Part shown: piece by piece, positions 36,743 through 50,243 of the stretch | Layout: every line of letters starts with the position of its first letter | How positions within the stretch are numbered: position 1 is the first letter of the stretch | DNA from: a bacterium | GTDB lineage: Bacteria > UBP6 > UBA1177 > JAKLFG01 | NCBI GenBank assembly: GCA_022711315.1 | Contig: JAKLFG010000012.1 | Span: 1 to 50,243, forward strand | Direction: 5' to 3' | Length of the DNA stretch: 50,243 bases | The notes under the pieces: generated by a model | Told to the model about the DNA's origin: nothing | Databases searched by the model: none | The model's input: only the letters and a program-made list of their open reading frames with translations | Position numbers and translations under genes: made by a program

Positions 36743-37426
36743 CTAAAATTTAGAGGGCGGGGTGAACACTTCGTCGTAGAGGTAGAACGCGTCCCAGACA
36801 TCCTTGGTGACGGCGTTCGAGGTATAGGTCGCTCCGGAGACGGCGTCCACTTCGTAGGGCTTGAAGGCCTCGTACATATCGGAACAGGGGTAGCAGTTCT
36901 TGTCATACTTCGGTGAAAGCGTTATGTCCGAGAGGACCATTCCCTTGAACTGATCGAAGAACCACTGCCCCAGCCGGTACCACCACGACTCGCGTTGCGA
37001 AACGATGGCGACGGCGATGCTTTTCGCCTCCGGGGAGATCGCGGTGAGGGCCTCGACCGTACCGTCGAACCCGTAGTTGCTGCCGGGGAAGGCATAGCCG
37101 ACCGTCGTTCCGTCCTTGACCGCGATGAAATAGCCGGCGCCGCTTCCGGTCTTCGCCGTGCAGAACATCTCGCCGTTCGGGAACAGTTGCCGGAGCGCGT
37201 TCTCCTCGTTCGTCGTCGGCGTCGCGGGGGTGCAGTCGATCGTCGGTTGATCATCGTCGTTCAGCAGTACCTCGTCGCTGAGGTTGCTTTCGTCCGTTAT
37301 GTCCTTTTCCCCCGTCTCCTCATCCAGCGCGGCGTTGTCATCCCGCCACTGTGGCGACGGTTCGTCACAGGCGGCGAGCAGAAGCATGGCGATGAGCAGG
37401 ATGATGGGCATGACCGCGTATCTCAC
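36743..37426 (-). CDS. FMN-binding-domain lipoprotein
   Basis: A 227-residue lipoprotein. I choose GTG at 37426: it overlaps the upstream stop as GTGA and gives the signal an N-terminal Arg (MRYAVMPIILLIAMLLLAAC), which the ATG five codons later lacks. The lipid site is Cys20 with Asp at +2, which in enterics means inner-membrane retention. An acidic linker runs to about 64. The FMN_bind domain (about 95-215) carries SGATYT at 197-202, whose last Thr is the usual covalent flavin site made by ApbE. A CYPC pair precedes it. Such domains pass electrons outside the cytoplasm (RnfG/NqrC-like). No apbE or rnf genes are in the window. Confidence 0.83.
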   Translation of the reverse strand: MRYAVMPIILLIAMLLLAACDEPSPQWRDDNAALDEETGEKDITDESNLSDEVLLNDDDQPTIDCTPATPTTNEENALRQLFPNGEMFCTAKTGSGAGYFIAVKDGTTVGYAFPGSNYGFDGTVEALTAISPEAKSIAVAIVSQRESWWYRLGQWFFDQFKGMVLSDITLSPKYDKNCYPCSDMYEAFKPYEVDAVSGATYTSNAVTKDVWDAFYLYDEVFTPPSKF

Positions 37427-39111
37427 CAGTGGTATTCGAACGACACGACCGGCGACGGCGGTGTCTCGCGCAGTATGCGGAGATCCTCTTCGGTGCGCGG
37501 CGCGACGGAGCGGCCGCCCGACAGCGCCGTGACCATGCCGGCCGGGTTCAACTGAAGATTCCAACTGCTCGCTTCCCGTTCCTGTGCCTGCCGCAGGCCA
37601 CGATCGTAGTAGACATAGTACATGAGCCCGAAGCCGGCGAGCGTACCGAGCGAGGCGGCGACGCCGAGCGTTTCGTACTGTTTTGTTTCCATCGTCGCGA
37701 GAAAGGCGATGCCGGTGGTAGTGAGTCCTCCCGCGGCGGTGCCGAGCCCGATGATGAAGGCGTCCATGTTAGAAAAGTCGAGCCCTTTGAGCAGGAAATA
37801 GCCGCCGACCGCGCCGCTGATGGTGCCGGCAAGGAAGAGCCCCGGATAGACCCGGGCGTCGTCGGTCTTGGCGGCGAGAGCGATGGAAGGCGGGAAGAAA
37901 CTGGTGATGGCGCTGAAGGACTGTATGAGCGATGCGTCGCCTTCGGTGTAATGGTCCCACCGGTTGGCGAAATGCCCGAGGAAGAGCCCTCCGGCGCCGC
38001 CCGCGAGAAGCATGGCGGGCATGACGCGAATGACCGGCGGGGCGAACGAGTCGAGCCCCATGAATATGGTCAGGGCGAGTTCCAGCATGACGCCATAGCC
38101 GAGCGTCGATCCGACACCGAGCATCCGTGCTTCGCCGCCGGTGAGTCCGTAATGGTCCGCATACCACATGCCAAGGGCGTATTCGCCCATGCTGAAGAGC
38201 ATCGTCGAGGCGAGGAGCAGTCGCGTGTAGGTATCGGGCCGGAGTCCGATATCGTTGCGCCACCCCCCCTCGTCGAATTCCAGTTCCATGCTCCCCGCGA
38301 TGAGCCAGAAGAGGGAAGCGCCGTCCACCGCGCCGCGGAGCGCCCCTTCGGCCGAGCTGAGCGCCATGCCGCGGGTGATGTCGGCGTTCCGCCCCAGCAC
38401 ATAGCCGAGTGTGAAGGCGGCGCCGCCGGCAAGGAGCGATGTGCCGGGATAGTAGGCCCAATGGGCGTTGTCGCCGCCGAAGATGTAGGGCATCATGAGT
38501 CCGTAGCCGGCACTCCAGAGAGTGGTGTAGGCGAGGAACGGGGCGAAGCCGTCCTCCTCGTTCTCGAAGGATGATGGCCGTTTCTGGACCGCGACGGTCA
38601 CCGGAGCGGTGCTCGATGGAGGCGGAACCGGGACCGGCGCCGGCGTCGGCGTCGGTGGTGCCACGGGGGCGGGCGTCGCCGCGGTCGAACATTTCCGGCG
38701 CAGATCGGTCATCTGTTGTTCGGTTATCGCTATGCGCCGGTCGACGATAGAGCCATGCTCCTCGACCGTGAGCGCCAGTTCAAAGCCGCGCGGCGTTTTA
38801 AAGAGGAGCGCCTGCCTGAAGCCGGGCAGGTCGGGGAAGAGTCCATAGCGGGTGCGGAGGTTCGGGTCGATCGCCATGATAGCCCCCGCCTCGTCGAAGG
38901 GGACCTGTTCCTCGGCGGCGAAAAGCGTCGGGGCTGGCGGTTCGGCGGGGGGGGCAGACTCTGTCACGACCGCTTCGGAGGCGGGCGCGGGTCCGGTCGC
39001 CGCCGGGGCATCGGGTCCGGGCAGCTCCTGCGCGCCCAGCAGAAAGGCGGCGCAGAGGGTAACAGGCAACATGCCGTTTCGTAGATGCGTCAGTATCATC
39101 ACCATCCCCAT
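37423..39111 (-). CDS. Polytopic membrane protein with Pro-rich stalk, unknown function
   Basis: A 562-residue protein. An N-terminal signal or TM (about 5-27) is followed by an Ala/Pro-rich stretch and a small domain near 70-130 (RTRYGLFPDLPGFRQALLFK). A Pro/Thr linker (TPAPVAPPTPTPAPVPVPPP) covers about 140-165. The C-terminal ~370 residues hold about ten Gly/Ala-rich hydrophobic segments. I do not recognise it. Of three clustered ATGs I took 39111, with AAGGA upstream. It is translationally coupled to the FMN-binding lipoprotein, so an electron-transfer role for the pair is conceivable. Confidence 0.7.
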   Translation of the reverse strand: MGMVMILTHLRNGMLPVTLCAAFLLGAQELPGPDAPAATGPAPASEAVVTESAPPAEPPAPTLFAAEEQVPFDEAGAIMAIDPNLRTRYGLFPDLPGFRQALLFKTPRGFELALTVEEHGSIVDRRIAITEQQMTDLRRKCSTAATPAPVAPPTPTPAPVPVPPPSSTAPVTVAVQKRPSSFENEEDGFAPFLAYTTLWSAGYGLMMPYIFGGDNAHWAYYPGTSLLAGGAAFTLGYVLGRNADITRGMALSSAEGALRGAVDGASLFWLIAGSMELEFDEGGWRNDIGLRPDTYTRLLLASTMLFSMGEYALGMWYADHYGLTGGEARMLGVGSTLGYGVMLELALTIFMGLDSFAPPVIRVMPAMLLAGGAGGLFLGHFANRWDHYTEGDASLIQSFSAITSFFPPSIALAAKTDDARVYPGLFLAGTISGAVGGYFLLKGLDFSNMDAFIIGLGTAAGGLTTTGIAFLATMETKQYETLGVAASLGTLAGFGLMYYVYYDRGLRQAQEREASSWNLQLNPAGMVTALSGGRSVAPRTEEDLRILRETPPSPVVSFEYHW

Positions 39112-39134
39112 TATCCGTCCTTCCGGTCGTCGGG

Positions 39135-39163
39135 ATGCTACAGCGACCGGTCGGGCTTTGCAA
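39135..39163 (-). promoter_or_regulatory. Predicted promoter for the membrane protein/FMN lipoprotein operon
   Basis: On the minus strand TTGCAA (39163-39158), a 17-base spacer and TAGCAT (39140-39135). The spacer contains the perfect ten-base palindrome CGACCGGTCG (39144-39153), a possible operator, though this word's halves are common in the window. Confidence 0.5.
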
Positions 39164-39189
39164 CTATTTTGTGTTGCGTGGCGCTCCCA

Positions 39190-39218
39190 TTGACTTGATC
39201 GCGGGCATCTGATACAAC
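39190..39218 (+). promoter_or_regulatory. Predicted promoter for the Cys-rich protein-ligA-rmuC operon
   Basis: TTGACT at 39190-39195 and TACAAC at 39213-39218 (4 of 6) with 17 bases between. It diverges from the promoter at 39135-39163, with 26 bases between the -35 boxes. Confidence 0.45.
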
Positions 39219-39253
39219 CGTGAGGACAGGGTTGTTTTCGGGAGGTTCCTCTT

Positions 39254-41492
<2,239 letters not shown>

Positions 41493-42846: not shown

Positions 42847-44094
42847 ATGCAAGGGTTCTTCTTTTTTTCGTTGGTATTCGTCCTTTTCCTCGGCTGTACT
42901 AGGCCGAACGACATAGACTGGAGAAAAGTGTTCGGCGATGAGGACTCTGCGGCCACCGTTGACGACCACAAACCCGTTCCCGATGAAATCCAGCCTGACG
43001 AAACGGTTCCTAATGATGTGGCGGATGAAGGAATAATCGACGAAATGGTCGAGAATGATCCTGTCTTGAACGAAGCAGAAGACGCCGTCACCGAAGAAGA
43101 ACCTGACAGTGCCGATACGGTCGAACCGGAGGGGGACGAACCGGAGCCGGCTGACGATGAAGATATAGTTTCCTATGACGAAGAAGAGATCGAAGACGAT
43201 GCGTGGGAGGCGGATACCTTTGAAGGTCAGGTTCCTGACACGGTGGATGTTTTGCCGGATCCCGATACGGTGGACGAGAATATCTTTGACGATTGGGTTC
43301 CTGACACGGCGGATGTCCAGCCGGACATCGACCATTTTGTTGATACGAAAACCTTCCAGTGTGCCGAAAAACCGGCGATCGGTACCGAATGGAACACGGT
43401 AAGCCAATATGAGCAGACTTGGACGGGGAGCGCGTGGGATCCGGTCGACGATCCCACAACCGAATACAGCACGGAGGCAAGCGTAGCCGCCTGCAGATAT
43501 AAGTGTGCGTCCGGGTATGTCTGGAATGAATCGTTCTGCGTCCAGTGCCTGACCGATGGGAACTGCTTGCCGGGTTATGTCTGCAATGCCTCCAATCAGT
43601 GCGTACTGGCCGTGCCAGCCGAAGCCTGCTCGACCGGCACCCAGAGCCGCGATCGTTGCTTGAACGCACGCGTCGTCGGCCGGAGCACCGCAAAGACATC
43701 GAGCGGCTATACCATATCGGACAACACCTGTTCCGCATACAATCGTGTCGATCAGTCGAGCGGATGCTGGGATGCTGGGGCGGACCATGTATATCGCATA
43801 TATCTGAGAGCAAGTGAAACAGCGGCAATGACCCTTGCCCTTGATATGGCTTGTCCGTTTTACGATGATTTTTCCTGGGATGCGACCCTTGCCATATACA
43901 ATGATGTCGGGTGTGCATCGGCGGCCCAATCATGGTGTGACGACAACTTTAGCGGGACAACGATCTATACTGCCCCGGCTGATGGTTGGTACTACATCGT
44001 TGTGGACGGAGCAACCATTTTTGAAGATGGAGGAGACTATTCTTTTACAGTTAAATTGCTGGATTGCGTAGCCGCCGACTGTAATTGCCCTTAG
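42847..44094 (+). CDS. IDW-KVFGD family lipoprotein with Cys module and PPC-like domain
   Basis: A 415-residue lipoprotein. The signal ends LFLGC (Cys17); the mature N terminus follows the family signature CTRPNDIDWRKVFGDED. An acidic Asp/Glu/Pro/Val linker fills ~34-170 with repeats such as VPDTVDV. A 60-residue Cys module (43360-43539) comes next, then a short Cys-rich link and a C-terminal beta domain resembling pre-peptidase C-terminal domains (GADHVYRIYL, GWYYIVVDG). A TTG five codons upstream is rejected because GAGGAGG (42834-42840) covers it and serves the ATG at 42847. Function unknown; surface exposure is likely but inferred. A terminator follows. Confidence 0.85.
   Translation: MQGFFFFSLVFVLFLGCTRPNDIDWRKVFGDEDSAATVDDHKPVPDEIQPDETVPNDVADEGIIDEMVENDPVLNEAEDAVTEEEPDSADTVEPEGDEPEPADDEDIVSYDEEEIEDDAWEADTFEGQVPDTVDVLPDPDTVDENIFDDWVPDTADVQPDIDHFVDTKTFQCAEKPAIGTEWNTVSQYEQTWTGSAWDPVDDPTTEYSTEASVAACRYKCASGYVWNESFCVQCLTDGNCLPGYVCNASNQCVLAVPAEACSTGTQSRDRCLNARVVGRSTAKTSSGYTISDNTCSAYNRVDQSSGCWDAGADHVYRIYLRASETAAMTLALDMACPFYDDFSWDATLAIYNDVGCASAAQSWCDDNFSGTTIYTAPADGWYYIVVDGATIFEDGGDYSFTVKLLDCVAADCNCP
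43360..43539 (+). repeat. Cys module copy 1
   Basis: Encodes 60 residues beginning CAEKPAIGTEWNTVS and ending with FC. It shares WNTVS, Y-QTW-GSAW, PVDDPTTEYST and CRYKC with the copy at 49159-49344 in the other lipoprotein gene, about 60% identity by eye. Confidence 0.85.
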
Positions 44095-44108
44095 CGCATC
44101 AAAAAATG

Positions 44109-44134
44109 AAAAACGGACATTCGACCGTTTTTTA
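44109..44134 (+). terminator. Rho-independent terminator after the first IDW-KVFGD lipoprotein
   Basis: AAAAACGG (44109-44116) pairs with CCGTTTTT (44125-44132) around an eight-base loop, ending in a T run. The A-run on the left arm could make it act on both strands. Confidence 0.75.
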
Positions 44135-44148
44135 TAAATGTGAAAAAA

Positions 44149-44190
44149 GGGGGTGTTTCCCGACGATAGAGAAGAGAGCGAGACACCGCC
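44149..44190. repeat. Imperfect inverted repeat in the intergenic region
   Basis: GGTGTTTC at 44152-44159 faces GAGACACC at 44180-44187 (one G-T pair). After a G-G mismatch, two further G-C pairs extend it, with a 20-base loop. It has no T-tract, so it is not a terminator. It may be a protein site or an RNA hairpin. Confidence 0.5.
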
Positions 44191-44223
44191 TCCTTCATGC
44201 CCCATAAATGCCCCGAATATTTT

Positions 44224-44251
44224 TTGCATATTATTAGGTAAAAGATATAAT
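44224..44251 (+). promoter_or_regulatory. Predicted promoter of the duplicated-repeat protein operon
   Basis: TTGCAT at 44224-44229, 16 bases, then a perfect TATAAT at 44246-44251 in the context AAAAGATATAAT. The same spacing and context occur before the lipoprotein at 42847. Confidence 0.65.
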
Positions 44252-44340
44252 CACCCGTCCGCACCTTTTGGGAGGGTGTCTGTTTTTGCGCCGAACTCAA
44301 AACGACATGACCTGCGAGAATGGTTAAATAGGAGTGTGAC

Positions 44341-47166
44341 ATGAAAAGATCTTTGTTCGTCATCTGTCTGATGTTCTCCATGTTACTGGGTGCCGCCGAG
44401 GACATCGGTAAGGAAACCATGGACAACATCCCGCTTGTTTCCCCATTCGCTATCAAGGAATCGAAACAGGTGCCATTGCCGGCGTCCGAGATGCCTGAGC
44501 TTAAGCCTATACCGGTCACGGCATCTGATGTGAGCGCCGACCTGCTTGTCCTCTACGATGCTGCCATTAAGGCCGATCGGAAGGGAAAGGGTGATCCTCG
44601 TGGCGCCAGTCGCGCATGGGGGCATGTGGTCGCATTCAAAGGGGAGAACCCGTTCCTTGCTCAGGCGAACGAGCGGAGGAGCCTGTGGGGTGTTTACACC
44701 AAAAAACAATTCATTCAGAAACGATATGAAAAAGCGAAAAAGAATGACAAGTACGGGAATTTGTTTCCAGAGCTCGTCATTTCTCAATGGGAAAAGGTCG
44801 CTTTGATAGAGAAGGATAACGATTACCTTGATATGGCGAAAAAACGGATAGCGGCATGGAGGGATTTTATAGGGAAAGTGAATGATTATCAGAAGAAAAA
44901 AAAGTCCTTTGCCGAACAGCGTGACAAGGACCGCAAGACACTCATGAAGATTCTGCCTCTCTCTGTCGTGCCCGAGAACCAGAAAAAAGACCTGTTGAAA
45001 AAATATCTCATTGTCTACAGCCCTTACTATGGGGTGGGTGACCTTGATGCTCTATTTGTGGAATTGCGTAATCCTGCGGTTGCTGAGGTGATGAAGAAGT
45101 TAATAGACACCCCGCAGTTTCGGGAGGAGATGGAAAAGAGTTGTGACGATAAGAGTCCGGTGTCGTGCCTGATAGCGGCCCATTATGCGGAACGCGATCG
45201 ACCGGCGGTTGCAACGGCTCTTTATCTGACCGCCTGTCGTGGCGGCATAGGGACCGCCTGTGAGAAAGTGGCGACCATGACTGCCGGCAAGGACGATAAA
45301 ACGACGGTCGAAGCCAACTGGAACGCCTGCGCGTGGGGCGTTGCGCATTCCTGTCTTACCCTGGGCGGTTTCGTCGAGACCGGCAAAGGAATAGAACGAT
45401 CTCTTGCCCTTACGGCAAAACTTTACGAAAAGGCTTGCAGTGGTGGGTTGCAAGACGCATGTGAGCGTCAGAAAATAGTGGAACTCGCGGCAAAAGATGA
45501 ACGGGAGAAGGAAGAGCAGGAGGCGCGTCGTGTTCTGGAGTCGGGCGAGGATGCCGCCGGATCGGAGGCGCCGCCCCCGCCTTCAAAGGCAGGCACACTT
45601 GATATCGGTGGCGAAACGCTGAACGACATCGTCTTGATCATACCCATGGAGTATCGAGAAGAGCCATTACCGGTCGCGACCGAAGCGGCACCCTTTACGC
45701 CGCAGGTTTCGGTGGATGCAACGACCGACCCCGATCTCCTCGTCGAGTTCGATGCGGTGGTGGCGGCGGACCGGAACGGGTCAAAGGATCCACAGGGCGC
45801 CATCTCGGCATGGAGGAAAATAGCGCAGTTCAAGGAACCGAATCCCTATGGCAAGGTGGCGCGGGAGCGCATAAGGGAATGGGAGCGGGTCATCAGGATG
45901 CGCGGGTTGGGCGACAAGTATCGAGTGGCAGTCGCCGCCGAGAATGTCGCGAGATTCTTTCCCGAGGAGGCCATAGCGGCGTGGAAAGAGGTTGCGGCGG
46001 CGGCTGAAGGAACGCCGCTCGTAGCGACGGCACGATCACGCATAGAACAGTGGGGCTCCTTCATGAGGCGACTTAGCGAATATCACGCTAAACGGAAGGT
46101 GGTCGCCGAGCAAAAAGAGCGGGATATCGAAACGCTTCGCCGCATACTGCCGCTTGAGATACTCGATGCGGCGAAGAAGAGCGAGGTAATGAAAAAATAT
46201 GTGACTGCTTATGGTGCCGTGTTCCGGCTCGATGACCTTGATCTGGTCCTTTCCGAACTTGACCAACAGAAAGTGCCGGGGATCCTGCAGATGCGTGATA
46301 TGGTCATCACGCCCCAGTGGAAAAAGCAGTCGGAGGTTGACTGTGCTCTGTTCCGCCCGCTTCCCTGCGCATTCGTTGCTTCGATGACGGGTCGCAGTGA
46401 GCCTGTCAAGGCATTGGAATATTCGCTCCTTGCCTGCAAGGGGGGCATTGCGTCGGTCTGCATGCCCGCCGGTGACCTCGCCAAGCAACAAAAGAATACT
46501 CCGGTCGCTCGCGAGGCATACGGCAACGCTTGTGCGTGGGGATTCTCCCGTGGCTGTGATGAAATGGCTGAGATCTTGAAGACGGGCAAGGAAGAGGATC
46601 GTGTGTTGGGCGCGCGGATAGTGAAAAGGGGTTGCTCGGGAAGCAATACGGACGATTGTCGTCTACAGAAGGCGGTAGAGTTGCGTGAAACAATGCCGGT
46701 GGTGACCCCGAAGGCGGTGGCTTCTCCGGAAACTTTCAAGGAAACCCCCAAAGAAGAGGCGCCGCTACCTCCGGTGATCGAAGAGCCTCCGTCAAAGCGC
46801 CCCTATCTCTGGTATGGCATCGGGCTTTTGGCTTTTGGTGTAGCGAGCGCAGGGGCTGGCGCCGGACTCATGGTGCAAGCCGATCTCTTTTACAAAAAAT
46901 ACAATGACATAGTGAATACGGAGAATCTGATAGAAATGAGAGAGCGCCTTTCAGAAGCCGCTTTCGTTCAGTATGTCCGTGACGCGAAAGACAAATACCA
47001 GACGCCGGGTGATACTTACAGCGATACCGGTATCGCCTTGATCTCGGTCGGTGGCGCGGCGGTCGTGACCGGGCTGGTGCTCACGCTCATCACTGAAGAG
47101 GCGCCGACTGTCACCATGAATTTCGATGAAAAAGGTTTTTCGATAGGGTACGCATTCAAGTTTTAG
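44341..47166 (+). CDS. Periplasmic protein with two copies of a Cys-rich helical unit and C-terminal TMs
   Basis: A 941-residue protein with a signal peptide ending near LLGAAE. Residues 21-382 and 421-783 are two copies of one unit: DIG-ET-N-I, then DLLV-D-ADR-G-DP-GA--AW, then a basic coiled region, a LPL...KKY segment, and C-x7-C pairs (ACRGGIGTAC, NACAWGVAHSC / NACAWGFSRGC, ending CSG...C--QK-VEL). The Cys spacing recalls Sel1/HcpA-like repeats. A Pro/Glu linker leads to two TMs (about 823-845 and 897-918) and a short tail. I do not recognise the family. Its stop abuts the next lipoprotein gene, so the two are cotranscribed. Confidence 0.83.
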   Translation: MKRSLFVICLMFSMLLGAAEDIGKETMDNIPLVSPFAIKESKQVPLPASEMPELKPIPVTASDVSADLLVLYDAAIKADRKGKGDPRGASRAWGHVVAFKGENPFLAQANERRSLWGVYTKKQFIQKRYEKAKKNDKYGNLFPELVISQWEKVALIEKDNDYLDMAKKRIAAWRDFIGKVNDYQKKKKSFAEQRDKDRKTLMKILPLSVVPENQKKDLLKKYLIVYSPYYGVGDLDALFVELRNPAVAEVMKKLIDTPQFREEMEKSCDDKSPVSCLIAAHYAERDRPAVATALYLTACRGGIGTACEKVATMTAGKDDKTTVEANWNACAWGVAHSCLTLGGFVETGKGIERSLALTAKLYEKACSGGLQDACERQKIVELAAKDEREKEEQEARRVLESGEDAAGSEAPPPPSKAGTLDIGGETLNDIVLIIPMEYREEPLPVATEAAPFTPQVSVDATTDPDLLVEFDAVVAADRNGSKDPQGAISAWRKIAQFKEPNPYGKVARERIREWERVIRMRGLGDKYRVAVAAENVARFFPEEAIAAWKEVAAAAEGTPLVATARSRIEQWGSFMRRLSEYHAKRKVVAEQKERDIETLRRILPLEILDAAKKSEVMKKYVTAYGAVFRLDDLDLVLSELDQQKVPGILQMRDMVITPQWKKQSEVDCALFRPLPCAFVASMTGRSEPVKALEYSLLACKGGIASVCMPAGDLAKQQKNTPVAREAYGNACAWGFSRGCDEMAEILKTGKEEDRVLGARIVKRGCSGSNTDDCRLQKAVELRETMPVVTPKAVASPETFKETPKEEAPLPPVIEEPPSKRPYLWYGIGLLAFGVASAGAGAGLMVQADLFYKKYNDIVNTENLIEMRERLSEAAFVQYVRDAKDKYQTPGDTYSDTGIALISVGGAAVVTGLVLTLITEEAPTVTMNFDEKGFSIGYAFKF
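44401..45486 (+). repeat. Internal duplication, copy A
   Basis: Encodes residues 21-382. It aligns without large gaps, at an offset of about 400 residues, to copy B. The copies are clearly diverged, so the duplication is old. Confidence 0.8.
45601..46689 (+). repeat. Internal duplication, copy B
   Basis: Encodes residues 421-783. Best-matching parts with copy A are DPDLLVEFDAVVAADR, the ILPLEIL...KKYVTAYG segment with DDLDLVLSEL, and NACAWGFSRGC. Confidence 0.8.
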
Positions 47167-47184
47167 ATGACATCGAGGTGTCCG

Positions 47185-49353
47185 ATGCGCTGTCTTTGCC
47201 TTGTTTCCTTGGTACTCCTTGCCGCTGTCGGCTGTACCAAGCCGAACGATATAGACTGGAATAAGGTGTTTGGGGATAAGGACACCGCCGCCGCCGCTGA
47301 CGACGACAGCGCGGTTCCCGACGACATCCAGCCGGACGAAACGATACCTGACGAGGCAACGGACAATGTGACGCCCGATGAAACGGGGGAAGACCTGCCC
47401 GACGAAGCGGAGGATGCCGTCACCGAGGAAGAGCCGGACAACACCGATATCGAGGAGCCGGAGGAAGACACAATAGAACCGGAGGAAGACACGGAGACGG
47501 AGGTCGATGACGAGTACATCGAGCCCGATGATTGGGAAGAAGTAGGGGACGATGCTTCCGGGCCGGACGATGATACCCTCGATGAAGATGCGGTTGATGA
47601 TCCATCTGATGAGGATGCGTCCATAGACATGGATAATACGCTCCCCGACATCGATCTCGTGCCGTTCTGCGGTGACGGCAAGCATGAGATATCTAATGGT
47701 CTTGTACTCCATCTTCGCATGGATGAGCCGTCTTATTTCAGGGCGGCATATGATTCATCTGCGAATCCTTTGACCGGACACGGTTATTTTACACAAGGTG
47801 CATCGTTAGGTAATGTTGGTGTCCGCGGAAAGGCGCTTGCTTTTGACGAGAATAGCGACTTTCAAGTACCGGACACTTCAAAACTCGACATAACTGGGCC
47901 GATGACCGTCATGGCGTGGGTCTATCTCGACCCGCACGCGAACAACATATGGCCGTACCCCGTCGTGATCAAGGGGAACGGCAGGCAGGCAAATTATTAT
48001 GTGTGGCGCGAGGCCGATCGAAAACTCAACTTCGGGTTCCACCGGTGGGAAGAGACCGGCACCGGCTGCGGCGCCAAGTCGACCATAGACATCGACGACA
48101 GCACCTGGCACTATTTCGCCGGTACCTACGACGGCACCTATGTGCGGCTCTATGTCTACAGCAGTACCGGTACGCTCGAAGATCTCGTGACCTCGGATCC
48201 CTGTCCCCAGGCGCCCTTGCCGAACGACCGCGCCTTCACCATTGGGCAGATACCGCCCGGGACCGAGTACCCGATGCACTACTACGACTCGACCGGCTAC
48301 ATCGATGAATTGCGGATATATACCCGCGCCCTCTCACAGAACGAGATAAACTCCATCAGGGGTTCCCATACCGAGTACTGTGACGACGGCGACGGGAACC
48401 CGAATGACGGCTGTACCGGTTGTCAGGTCGATGCCGGTCATATCTGCTACGGCTCCCCCTCGACATGTCTCGCCGAACCGTCTTCGTTCACCTGCACCCA
48501 CTCGATAAATATCTGTGACAGCGTCGAAGATTATTACGACCCCTCTTATAGCGAGTACTATTATCGAAGTTGGGTCGGTACTACTCTACAGATAACAACC
48601 AACAGTACGGTGAAATGGACATCGCCGTCCTTCTCTACATACCAGTGGTATGAATACTCGTCTGGCGCGAAATGCTGGGGGACTTGGTACAACTACACTT
48701 TTGATCATGGTCAAACGGTAGAGGCTACCTATACGGCCAAGGGAGCCTATGACCCGCATGAGTGTTATTTCCAAATAAACGATGCCCCGAATGGTGGCGG
48801 CGTCGTCATCGCCACCACCGTGGCGACCGCCAGCGGCCAGTGGCCGGCGAACTATTCCTACACCGGCAACTGCTTTGCTTCCTCTCCTTCTCCTTTCTGT
48901 GGAGATGGCGCTACGCAAGAGGGACTTGAAGAATGTGACGATAACAACACGAGTAACTGCGATCTTTGTTCTTCCATTTGCAAAAATAAGCCGGCTAATT
49001 ACTGCGGAGACGGTTATATCTGTGGTAGCGAAAAATGTGAAGGCGAGGATCTTAACGGGAAAACCTGCTTGACGCAGGTTCCCGGTGCTGAATGGGGTAA
49101 ACTTTCCTGTAGCGGCGCCTGTGACTTTGTCACCACCGCCTGTTCAAAAAATTATACTTGTGCCGGAAAACCTTCGACAGGGACGCTCTGGAATACCGTT
49201 TCGAGTTATGTGCAGACATGGAACGGTTCAGCGTGGATTCCGGTCGATGACCCGACGACCGAATACAGTACGACCGCCAGCACCAGTTCTTGCCGTTATA
49301 AATGCGACACGGCGAATGGCTATTCATGGAACGGTAGTTCATGTGTAAAATGA
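47185..49353 (+). CDS. IDW-KVFGD family lipoprotein with LamG domain and Cys modules
   Basis: A 722-residue lipoprotein. The signal peptide ends AAVGC (Cys17), followed by the family signature TKPNDIDWNKVFGDKD. An acidic linker runs to about 160. A LamG/concanavalin-like domain spans about 170-395 (GLVLHLRMDEPS, MTVMAWVYLD, YIDELRIYTRALS). DUF4215-type Cys repeats follow (CDDGDGNPNDGC, CGDGATQEGLEECDDNN), and a copy of the 60-residue Cys module ends the protein. An ATG at 47167 is in frame, but GAGG at 47175-47178 serves 47185, where the context also matches the paralogue at 42847. It probably binds or displays at the surface; ligand unknown. Confidence 0.85.
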   Translation: MRCLCLVSLVLLAAVGCTKPNDIDWNKVFGDKDTAAAADDDSAVPDDIQPDETIPDEATDNVTPDETGEDLPDEAEDAVTEEEPDNTDIEEPEEDTIEPEEDTETEVDDEYIEPDDWEEVGDDASGPDDDTLDEDAVDDPSDEDASIDMDNTLPDIDLVPFCGDGKHEISNGLVLHLRMDEPSYFRAAYDSSANPLTGHGYFTQGASLGNVGVRGKALAFDENSDFQVPDTSKLDITGPMTVMAWVYLDPHANNIWPYPVVIKGNGRQANYYVWREADRKLNFGFHRWEETGTGCGAKSTIDIDDSTWHYFAGTYDGTYVRLYVYSSTGTLEDLVTSDPCPQAPLPNDRAFTIGQIPPGTEYPMHYYDSTGYIDELRIYTRALSQNEINSIRGSHTEYCDDGDGNPNDGCTGCQVDAGHICYGSPSTCLAEPSSFTCTHSINICDSVEDYYDPSYSEYYYRSWVGTTLQITTNSTVKWTSPSFSTYQWYEYSSGAKCWGTWYNYTFDHGQTVEATYTAKGAYDPHECYFQINDAPNGGGVVIATTVATASGQWPANYSYTGNCFASSPSPFCGDGATQEGLEECDDNNTSNCDLCSSICKNKPANYCGDGYICGSEKCEGEDLNGKTCLTQVPGAEWGKLSCSGACDFVTTACSKNYTCAGKPSTGTLWNTVSSYVQTWNGSAWIPVDDPTTEYSTTASTSSCRYKCDTANGYSWNGSSCVK
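49159..49344 (+). repeat. Cys module copy 2
   Basis: Encodes 62 residues beginning CAGKPSTGTLWNTVS and ending SSC, at the extreme C terminus of the LamG lipoprotein. It matches the internal module at 43360-43539 of the other lipoprotein. Confidence 0.85.
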
Positions 49354-49408
49354 TATTTGCGATGAAGATCGCTACCTTGCATGAGATAAGGATAAGAGGG
49401 AGGATATT

Positions 49409-50243
49409 ATGAGGTCTTTCACGGTGTCGCAGGTTCTTCTGTTCGTGATCGCCCTGTTCTTGGGTTGTACCAAGCCGAACACGATAGACTGGGATAAGGT
49501 GTTCGGGGACAAGGATGCATCGCCCGATAATATGGTAACGCTCGACGAGGAAGAATGGCCCGATGAAGAATCTCCCGCGGAAGAAACGACACCGCCGGAT
49601 AACGACACATCAGAAGATGATGAATATGTGGCCGAGCATGACATGCCCGAGGGGGACGATGCCGATGTGGCGACCGACCATGTTCTGCCGACGGAAGAAG
49701 ACATCCTTTTGTCCGATGACGCGGCTGAGGTGGAAGATACGGTGACCGATCCTGACTTCGATCTGATGGTAGACGAGACCTCTCCGTGGATAACGAGCAC
49801 CGAGCCCGAGTCCGATGCGACGGATGTCTTGGTCGATGTGATAATAACGATAACCTTCAGCGAAGCGCTCGACGGAGCCAAAGTGACGGGGGAGAACATC
49901 CTTCTGGAAAGATCGGGAGAATCGGTGCTTGTCGCGATAACCTACAGGTCGGACGACCATTCGGTATTGATAACCCCGACCACTCCGCTTGATCATGGCG
50001 TTGCATACACGGTGACGGTGAGAACGGGCATCACCGATCTTGCGGGCAACGCTCTTGAGGCGGAGCATGTCTTTAGTTTTGTAACGACCCTCTGTGGGAA
50101 CGGTGTGCCGGATCTCGGCGAACAATGTGACGATGGCAACACGGATCCTTGTGATGGTTGCTTGAATAACTGTATCTTACACACAAATATATGCGGTGAC
50201 GGTTATCCATGCGAGGATGAGGAATGTGATGACGGAAATGATG
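49409..50243 (+). CDS. IDW-KVFGD family lipoprotein with Ig-like domain and Cys repeats (runs off window)
   Basis: The first 278 residues of a third paralogue. The signal ends LFLGC (Cys20), followed by TKPNTIDWDKVFGDKD and an acidic linker to about 125. A Big_5-type bacterial Ig-like domain (about 128-228) has SPWITSTEPESDATDV, ITFSEALDGA and LTDLAGN-like ITDLAGNALE. DUF4215-like Cys repeats then start (CGNGVPDLGEQCDDGN, CGDGYPCEDEECDDG), and the frame is open at the edge. An AGAGGGAGG ribosome site precedes the ATG, 55 bases after the previous stop. Total length and C-terminal module are unknown. Confidence 0.85.
   Translation, partial: MRSFTVSQVLLFVIALFLGCTKPNTIDWDKVFGDKDASPDNMVTLDEEEWPDEESPAEETTPPDNDTSEDDEYVAEHDMPEGDDADVATDHVLPTEEDILLSDDAAEVEDTVTDPDFDLMVDETSPWITSTEPESDATDVLVDVIITITFSEALDGAKVTGENILLERSGESVLVAITYRSDDHSVLITPTTPLDHGVAYTVTVRTGITDLAGNALEAEHVFSFVTTLCGNGVPDLGEQCDDGNTDPCDGCLNNCILHTNICGDGYPCEDEECDDGND

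Follow-up and report, generated by a model that had tools for sequence, protein, structure and literature searches.

Short terminal tags with dedicated membrane partners are known from the PEP-CTERM/exosortase and MYXO-CTERM systems, where C-terminal sorting tags, tripartite in the PEP-CTERM type, are served by a partner that is a processing enzyme. CsgF docks on CsgG via its mature N terminus. In the SusCD and BtuBG systems a membrane protein and a lipoprotein are encoded as a gene pair and presumably cooperate. The export signal (LES) of Capnocytophaga canimorsus is QKDDE; K-(D/E)2 or Q-A-(D/E)2 lies a few residues after the lipidated Cys+1 (PMC5080379). No described family was found for the tag and partner system that we report here, and a literature search by module names returned nothing on it.

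The window, i.e. the whole stretch of 50,243 nucleotides that was analysed, is the entire contig C15 of a 2.67-Mb MAG that is 83% complete; the comparison genomes are also MAGs, many of them fragmented. Lipoproteins were called by pattern (signal peptide, lipobox, Cys+1). The earlier note on this DNA reported three lipoprotein genes with a near-identical mature N terminus and an acidic linker, and these are real; all three lie on the plus strand and have a lipobox. The best start of g1 (42847..44094, plus strand) is the ATG at 42847, preceded by GAGGAGG. Its lipidated Cys codon lies at 42895-42897 and its tag, CTRPNDIDWRKVFGDED, at 42895..42945 (plus strand); an acidic linker and a WNTV cysteine module follow, and the C-terminal region has no Pfam match. 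A gap of 246 bp separates g1 from a 941-aa ORF (44341..47166, plus strand) that is absent from the earlier note and that we call the partner. Because this gap holds a promoter-like site, TTTGCA-17-TATAAT (44223..44251, plus strand; a consensus match only), together with terminator-like inverted repeats, g1 may be a separate transcript. The partner has a signal peptide, two helical TPR/Sel1-like copies, a transmembrane hairpin and, at the C terminus, a strand that ends in SIGYAFKF. Its hairpin domain occupies 46774..47163 (plus strand), with TM segments at about 46807-46881 and 47023-47103; in relatives, tag class goes with the subtype of this domain.

Immediately at the stop codon of the partner begins g2 (47167..49353, plus strand), whose tag, CTKPNDIDWNKVFGDKD (47233..47283, plus strand), and acidic linker precede LamG, a DUF4215/myxo_disulf repeat and another WNTV cysteine module. 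The contig end cuts g3 (49409..50242, plus strand), which has the tag CTKPNTIDWDKVFGDKD (49466..49516, plus strand), an acidic linker, a Big_5 Ig-like domain and DUF4215 repeats; its orthologue in the genus mate L067 is at least 1,338 aa long. All three are bacterial lipoproteins by pattern only, with LFLG-C in g1 and g3 and AAVG-C in g2. The myxo_disulf_rpt/DUF4215 module (TIGR02232 or PF13948) scores 37.4 bits in g2 against a cut-off of 20.8, DUF4215 scores 29.3 bits in g3 against a cut-off of 27, and the g3 orthologue reaches 160 bits with eight repeats. Elsewhere in the window, on the minus strand, a 625-aa ORF (37423-39300) has several hydrophobic segments and no Pfam match.

The earlier note also held that the N terminus is much better conserved than the linker. 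This is the case among the paralogues g1, g2 and g3, where pairwise identity is 76-88% over residues 1-18 and mostly 33-64% in the linker, with 3-5 synonymous codon changes per pair in the tag stretch. It does not extend to the syntenic homologue in RA.bin96, against which the segment is 39-44% identical and the next 60 residues 41-62%. Taken alone, that comparison shows what the earlier note had named as telling against its reading, a motif as variable as the linker in a wider alignment. The C-terminal modules, described as unrelated, are not all so: g1 and g2 share the cysteine module WNTVSxYxQTWxGSAW, and g2 and g3 share DUF4215/myxo_disulf_rpt. The linkers of g1 and g2 are plainly homologous (DEAEDAVTEEEPD).

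A profile of the N terminus was built and searched against the host genome and related genomes. It found four window-class members in the host: g1, g2, g3 and a copy on contig C89 whose C-terminal module is of another kind (choice-of-anchor L). Three more are encoded by the genus mate L067 (USDE_metabat.136), namely the orthologues of g2, g3 and the C89 copy, the last of which has lost the Trp (KIDRDAV). L052 (RA.bin96), a third genome of the family and from a third genus, has one, CAEPKAVDWSQLFPDKD. All genomes of GTDB r220 were also scanned with a back-translated degenerate pattern, [IV]DWxx[VL]FxD[KE]D. This gave 16 stretches, 14 of them chance matches in unrelated or spurious frames and the remainder in L067 and L052, and the pattern was absent from the other GTDB r220 species. 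With four copies in the host, four elsewhere and the rest of GTDB r220 empty, the motif is therefore confined to one small bacterial family, and the IDW motif is not the signature of a widespread one.

In RA.bin96 the gene of the tagged lipoprotein directly follows that of a 552-aa homologue of the 941-aa ORF; it is syntenic with g2 and encodes an FGE-type module in place of the LamG and cysteine repeats of g2. This synteny allowed a partner family to be recognised. Proteins of this family are exported and combine a two-helix transmembrane hairpin with a strand at the C terminus whose last residue is aromatic; an N-terminal domain with weak similarity to LpoB, DUF2380 or CsgG and a TPR/Sel1-like or PEGA region are optional. 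The family profile matches in 28/28 genomes of the phylum examined, and nearly all full-length hairpin-bearing homologues have a lipoprotein gene next, within a few bases. Many hairpin-less copies instead run on into a module ending ..VRCVR, resembling the Lcl_C modules of the paired lipoproteins. Since the N-domain of the partner is fused here to an Lcl_C-like module, these sequences suggest that partner and lipoprotein module function jointly.

Some further relatives are recorded here as separate observations. The partner N-terminal domain often occurs without a hairpin in proteins with Lcl_C/FGE-like ends, ..VRCVR or ..GIRCAK (L139:45-1134, L199, L200, L201, L205, L208, L209, L213-L217). 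A hairpin subclade of about 350 aa, ending AGTLQFALNW, has as neighbour a conserved secreted protein without a lipobox, GxNGIS..LKWEEGxWDFFIMHK, and forms a second kind of pair (L187, L196, L218). Hairpin-only proteins of 157-172 aa stand directly upstream of a putative phosphatidylserine decarboxylase gene in three genomes of family f1 (L235, L237, L238).

Each of the described systems shares something with this arrangement. As with LES, a short motif right after the lipidated Cys would set the fate of lipoproteins with differing C-terminal domains. However, LES is acidic with one motif per species, whereas the tags here are aromatic and hydrophobic, come in several classes and are matched to a co-encoded membrane protein. 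We rejected the Bacteroidota signal as a candidate, because five window-class tags scanned over residues 1-9 contain neither K-(D/E)2 nor Q-A-(D/E)2. Similarity to CsgG and LpoB is confined to the N-terminal domain of some partner homologues (LpoB, at E=9.8e-6, narrowly passes the curated cut-off; CsgG, at E=0.008, does not pass). The window partner, without a Pfam match, has no such domain, tag class is independent of that domain, and CsgF is no lipoprotein. PEP-CTERM and MYXO-CTERM tags also sit at one end of many unrelated proteins, in classes that co-occur with a cognate membrane protein; here, however, the tag is N-terminal, after a lipobox, and no processing-enzyme domain was recognised in the partner with Pfam or NCBIfam. 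The gene pair recalls SusCD and BtuBG, but the partner is no TonB-dependent barrel: it consists of helical repeats and a hairpin that is predicted to be helical, and has no Pfam or NCBIfam match. An AlphaFold2 model of the RA.bin96 partner, made from a three-row alignment, is likewise helical at low confidence (mean pLDDT 50).

In paired lipoproteins the Cys is followed at once by a segment of 16-18 residues rich in aromatic and large hydrophobic residues; beyond it their linkers and modules are dissimilar. The segments form at least three classes, defined after inspection of the tags: the window class, PNDIDWxKVFGDKD; class A, PD[YL]TDEIxxAY, with the fuller form CERPDYTDEIxxAYxxA; and class B, GIK[FW]xNPNDxNSD, with the fuller forms CDSGIKFxNPNDxNSDAY or CEKDMKWINPDDPxAD. 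There are smaller classes too, DLLEELKKDPP and VDIGELVEALNALD. Mean F/W/Y at residues 2-18 was 1.79 in the 13 paired clusters on which the idea of an aromatic tag was formed. In 25 unpaired lipoproteins with an acidic linker it was 0.20 (p=6e-6), and at control positions 25-42 the F/W/Y content of paired and unpaired lipoproteins did not differ. In a hold-out of 20 additional regions, at least one F/W/Y was present in 16/17 paired lipoproteins versus 11/32 unpaired ones of the same order (p=5e-5). Pairwise identity over positions 2-16 is 0.46 in class B, 0.41 in class A and 0.59 in the window class; over positions 17-28 it is 0.16, 0.13 and 0.24. The drop after about residue 17 is sharp in all three, and thus the 17-residue length recurs with other letters. 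These alignments establish the position, length and conservation of the tags, as the gene order does their pairing.

A wide acidic, D/T-rich linker was also considered as the common signal and rejected: it is too widespread and fails to separate paired from unpaired lipoproteins. A survey of 576 kb of the host genome (loci L068-L093, L096 and the window) found 67 lipoproteins, about 25 of which are unpaired and start with a long acidic Asp/Thr-rich linker and no tag. The same genome encodes two lipoproteins of 1,293 and 2,491 aa (L076:3050 and L076:7242) that lack an acidic linker and start almost identically, with C(D/E)SNxPGGIRLHYSWVD.

Tag class goes with hairpin subtype. On the hairpin tree one change suffices to split classes A and B (as few in 0.3% of shuffles); on the tree of the partner N-domain they intermix, with three changes (26% of shuffles). 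As the 3′ end of the hairpin adjoins the 5′ end of the tag, linkage is possible, and tags and hairpins were therefore searched separately in 25 genomes. Bit thresholds, chosen after the scores had been seen, were at least 190 bits for a class A hairpin and at least 170 bits for a class B hairpin. The 6/25 genomes with class A tags are exactly the six with a class A hairpin, and class B tags were found in 9/10 genomes with the class B hairpin and in 0/15 others. Restricted to genus g4, the exact probabilities are 2e-4 (A) and 2e-3 (B), values that ignore phylogeny and share the post hoc thresholds. No class B tag was found outside genomes with a class B hairpin over 290 genomes. G008 has a class B hairpin and no detectable B tag, and three full-length class B hairpin proteins have no adjacent lipoprotein (G005:C31, G008:C3, G019:C35).

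Several arrangements depart from a simple pair. The layout of the window, lipoprotein-partner-lipoprotein, recurs in L228 and G020:C34, and tandem lipoproteins of one tag class occur in G005:C20 and L229. Two tag classes coexist in several genomes. Thirteen verified lipoprotein tags lie far from any detected hairpin, all 13 in genomes with the cognate hairpin; where their surroundings were read, the neighbours are of housekeeping type. It was also predicted beforehand that hairpins scoring between the classes would stand beside intermediate tags. This held in 6/7 fetched regions, the seventh hairpin being truncated: CGGTDNSEEIANAF and CSSVADNSENIALAF lie next to hairpins intermediate to class A, and CEPPDQTNNIHNAY was also among the expected tags. 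Distant class B hairpins of two other genera have neighbours with distant B tags, LWINFYDPD and LWVNFYDPD. The class match and the cross-genome co-occurrence are seen directly in the sequences. As a separate observation, a tandem array of three proteins, each about 270 aa long with the end FLM(F/L)ETGYRF, is encoded directly upstream of one unlinked class A-tagged lipoprotein (L300:3326-5830).

We propose that the conserved segment is probably a lipid-proximal docking tag for a cognate hairpin partner. The lipoprotein would be lipidated at Cys+1, and residues +2 to about +17 would form a short class-specific hydrophobic and aromatic segment that binds the transmembrane-hairpin region of the partner, usually encoded by the adjacent gene. 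The acidic linker would let an exchangeable C-terminal module extend outward, where LamG, Ig-like, FGE-like, Lcl_C, beta-propeller and cysteine-repeat modules probably serve in ligand binding or adhesion. One hairpin class would serve several lipoproteins, both neighbouring and unlinked. Physical binding, the membrane involved, the exposure of the modules and their ligand binding are all what we infer from these patterns. A docking role for the window class, found in three genomes, is argued by analogy with classes A and B and from the RA.bin96 synteny. Several observations weigh against docking: the class B hairpin proteins with no lipoprotein beside them, the lack of a detectable B tag in G008, the hairpin subclade paired with a secreted protein, the hairpin-only proteins of f1, the Trp lost from the unlinked copy in L067, and the low confidence of the structural model. 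The suggestion in the earlier note that the segment has a function of its own, in docking or sorting, thus gains sequence-level support from the co-occurrence of tags and hairpins, in cis and in trans, in 25 genomes of the order. Its idea of a shared machine fits less well: the partner looks cognate and class-specific, and most acidic-linker lipoproteins of the host genome have no such tag.

Could ancestry and linkage alone produce these patterns? The lipoproteins would then be duplicates in which hairpin, signal peptide and a functionless tag travel as one DNA stretch. The window copies are indeed tandem paralogues, against RA.bin96 their motif shows no more conservation than the linker, and hairpin end and tag start adjoin in the DNA, so co-inheritance accounts for part of the tree split and of the genome co-occurrence. 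However, all three classes show conservation that halts sharply near residue 17 while the coding sequence runs on, unlinked tags are present only where the genome has the cognate hairpin, and g1 and the upstream lipoprotein of L228 carry the tag though neither is beside a hairpin end. We consider this explanation unlikely. We would give equally little credence to a signal for a general export or sorting machine, LES-like as in Bacteroidota or of Lol type, with the paired gene incidental. The position directly after Cys+1 would fit, as would the acidic stretches that follow the Cys in many lipoproteins here, and in Capnocytophaga, too, a short motif at the N terminus, the LES, is enough for export to the surface (PMC5080379). 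Such a signal, however, would be expected on most lipoproteins and the LES motif is missing from the five window-class tags scanned; the tags that we see are aromatic, differ by class and mostly neighbour a hairpin gene, with two classes in the same genomes.

A membrane-surface amphipathic or processing element, e.g. one that aids lipidation or release, seems less probable still. The tags adjoin the lipid anchor, contain hydrophobic residues and in several cases resemble short helices on inspection, and the hairpin association would then reflect co-expression only. Yet the class B tag KFxNPNDxNSD is not obviously an amphipathic helix, and an element of this kind does not predict that tag and hairpin class should match in trans.

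The docking-tag reading can be taken one step further, to a proposal that is close to an even bet but that we would not yet favour: that this uncultured phylum uses an orthogonal N-terminal tag code, each class being read by its own hairpin protein, which would act as a cognate membrane platform and bring together surface modules unrelated to one another, whether their genes are close by or distant. The presence of two classes within one cell makes tag swaps a direct test, and the tags could act as short anchors in protein engineering. The N-terminal signals known from lipoproteins are recognised by general machinery. If the proposal is true, a class-specific tag read by a membrane protein encoded with it would add another route of surface-complex assembly, and there would be a simple sequence rule predicting which of the modular lipoproteins of this phylum act together.
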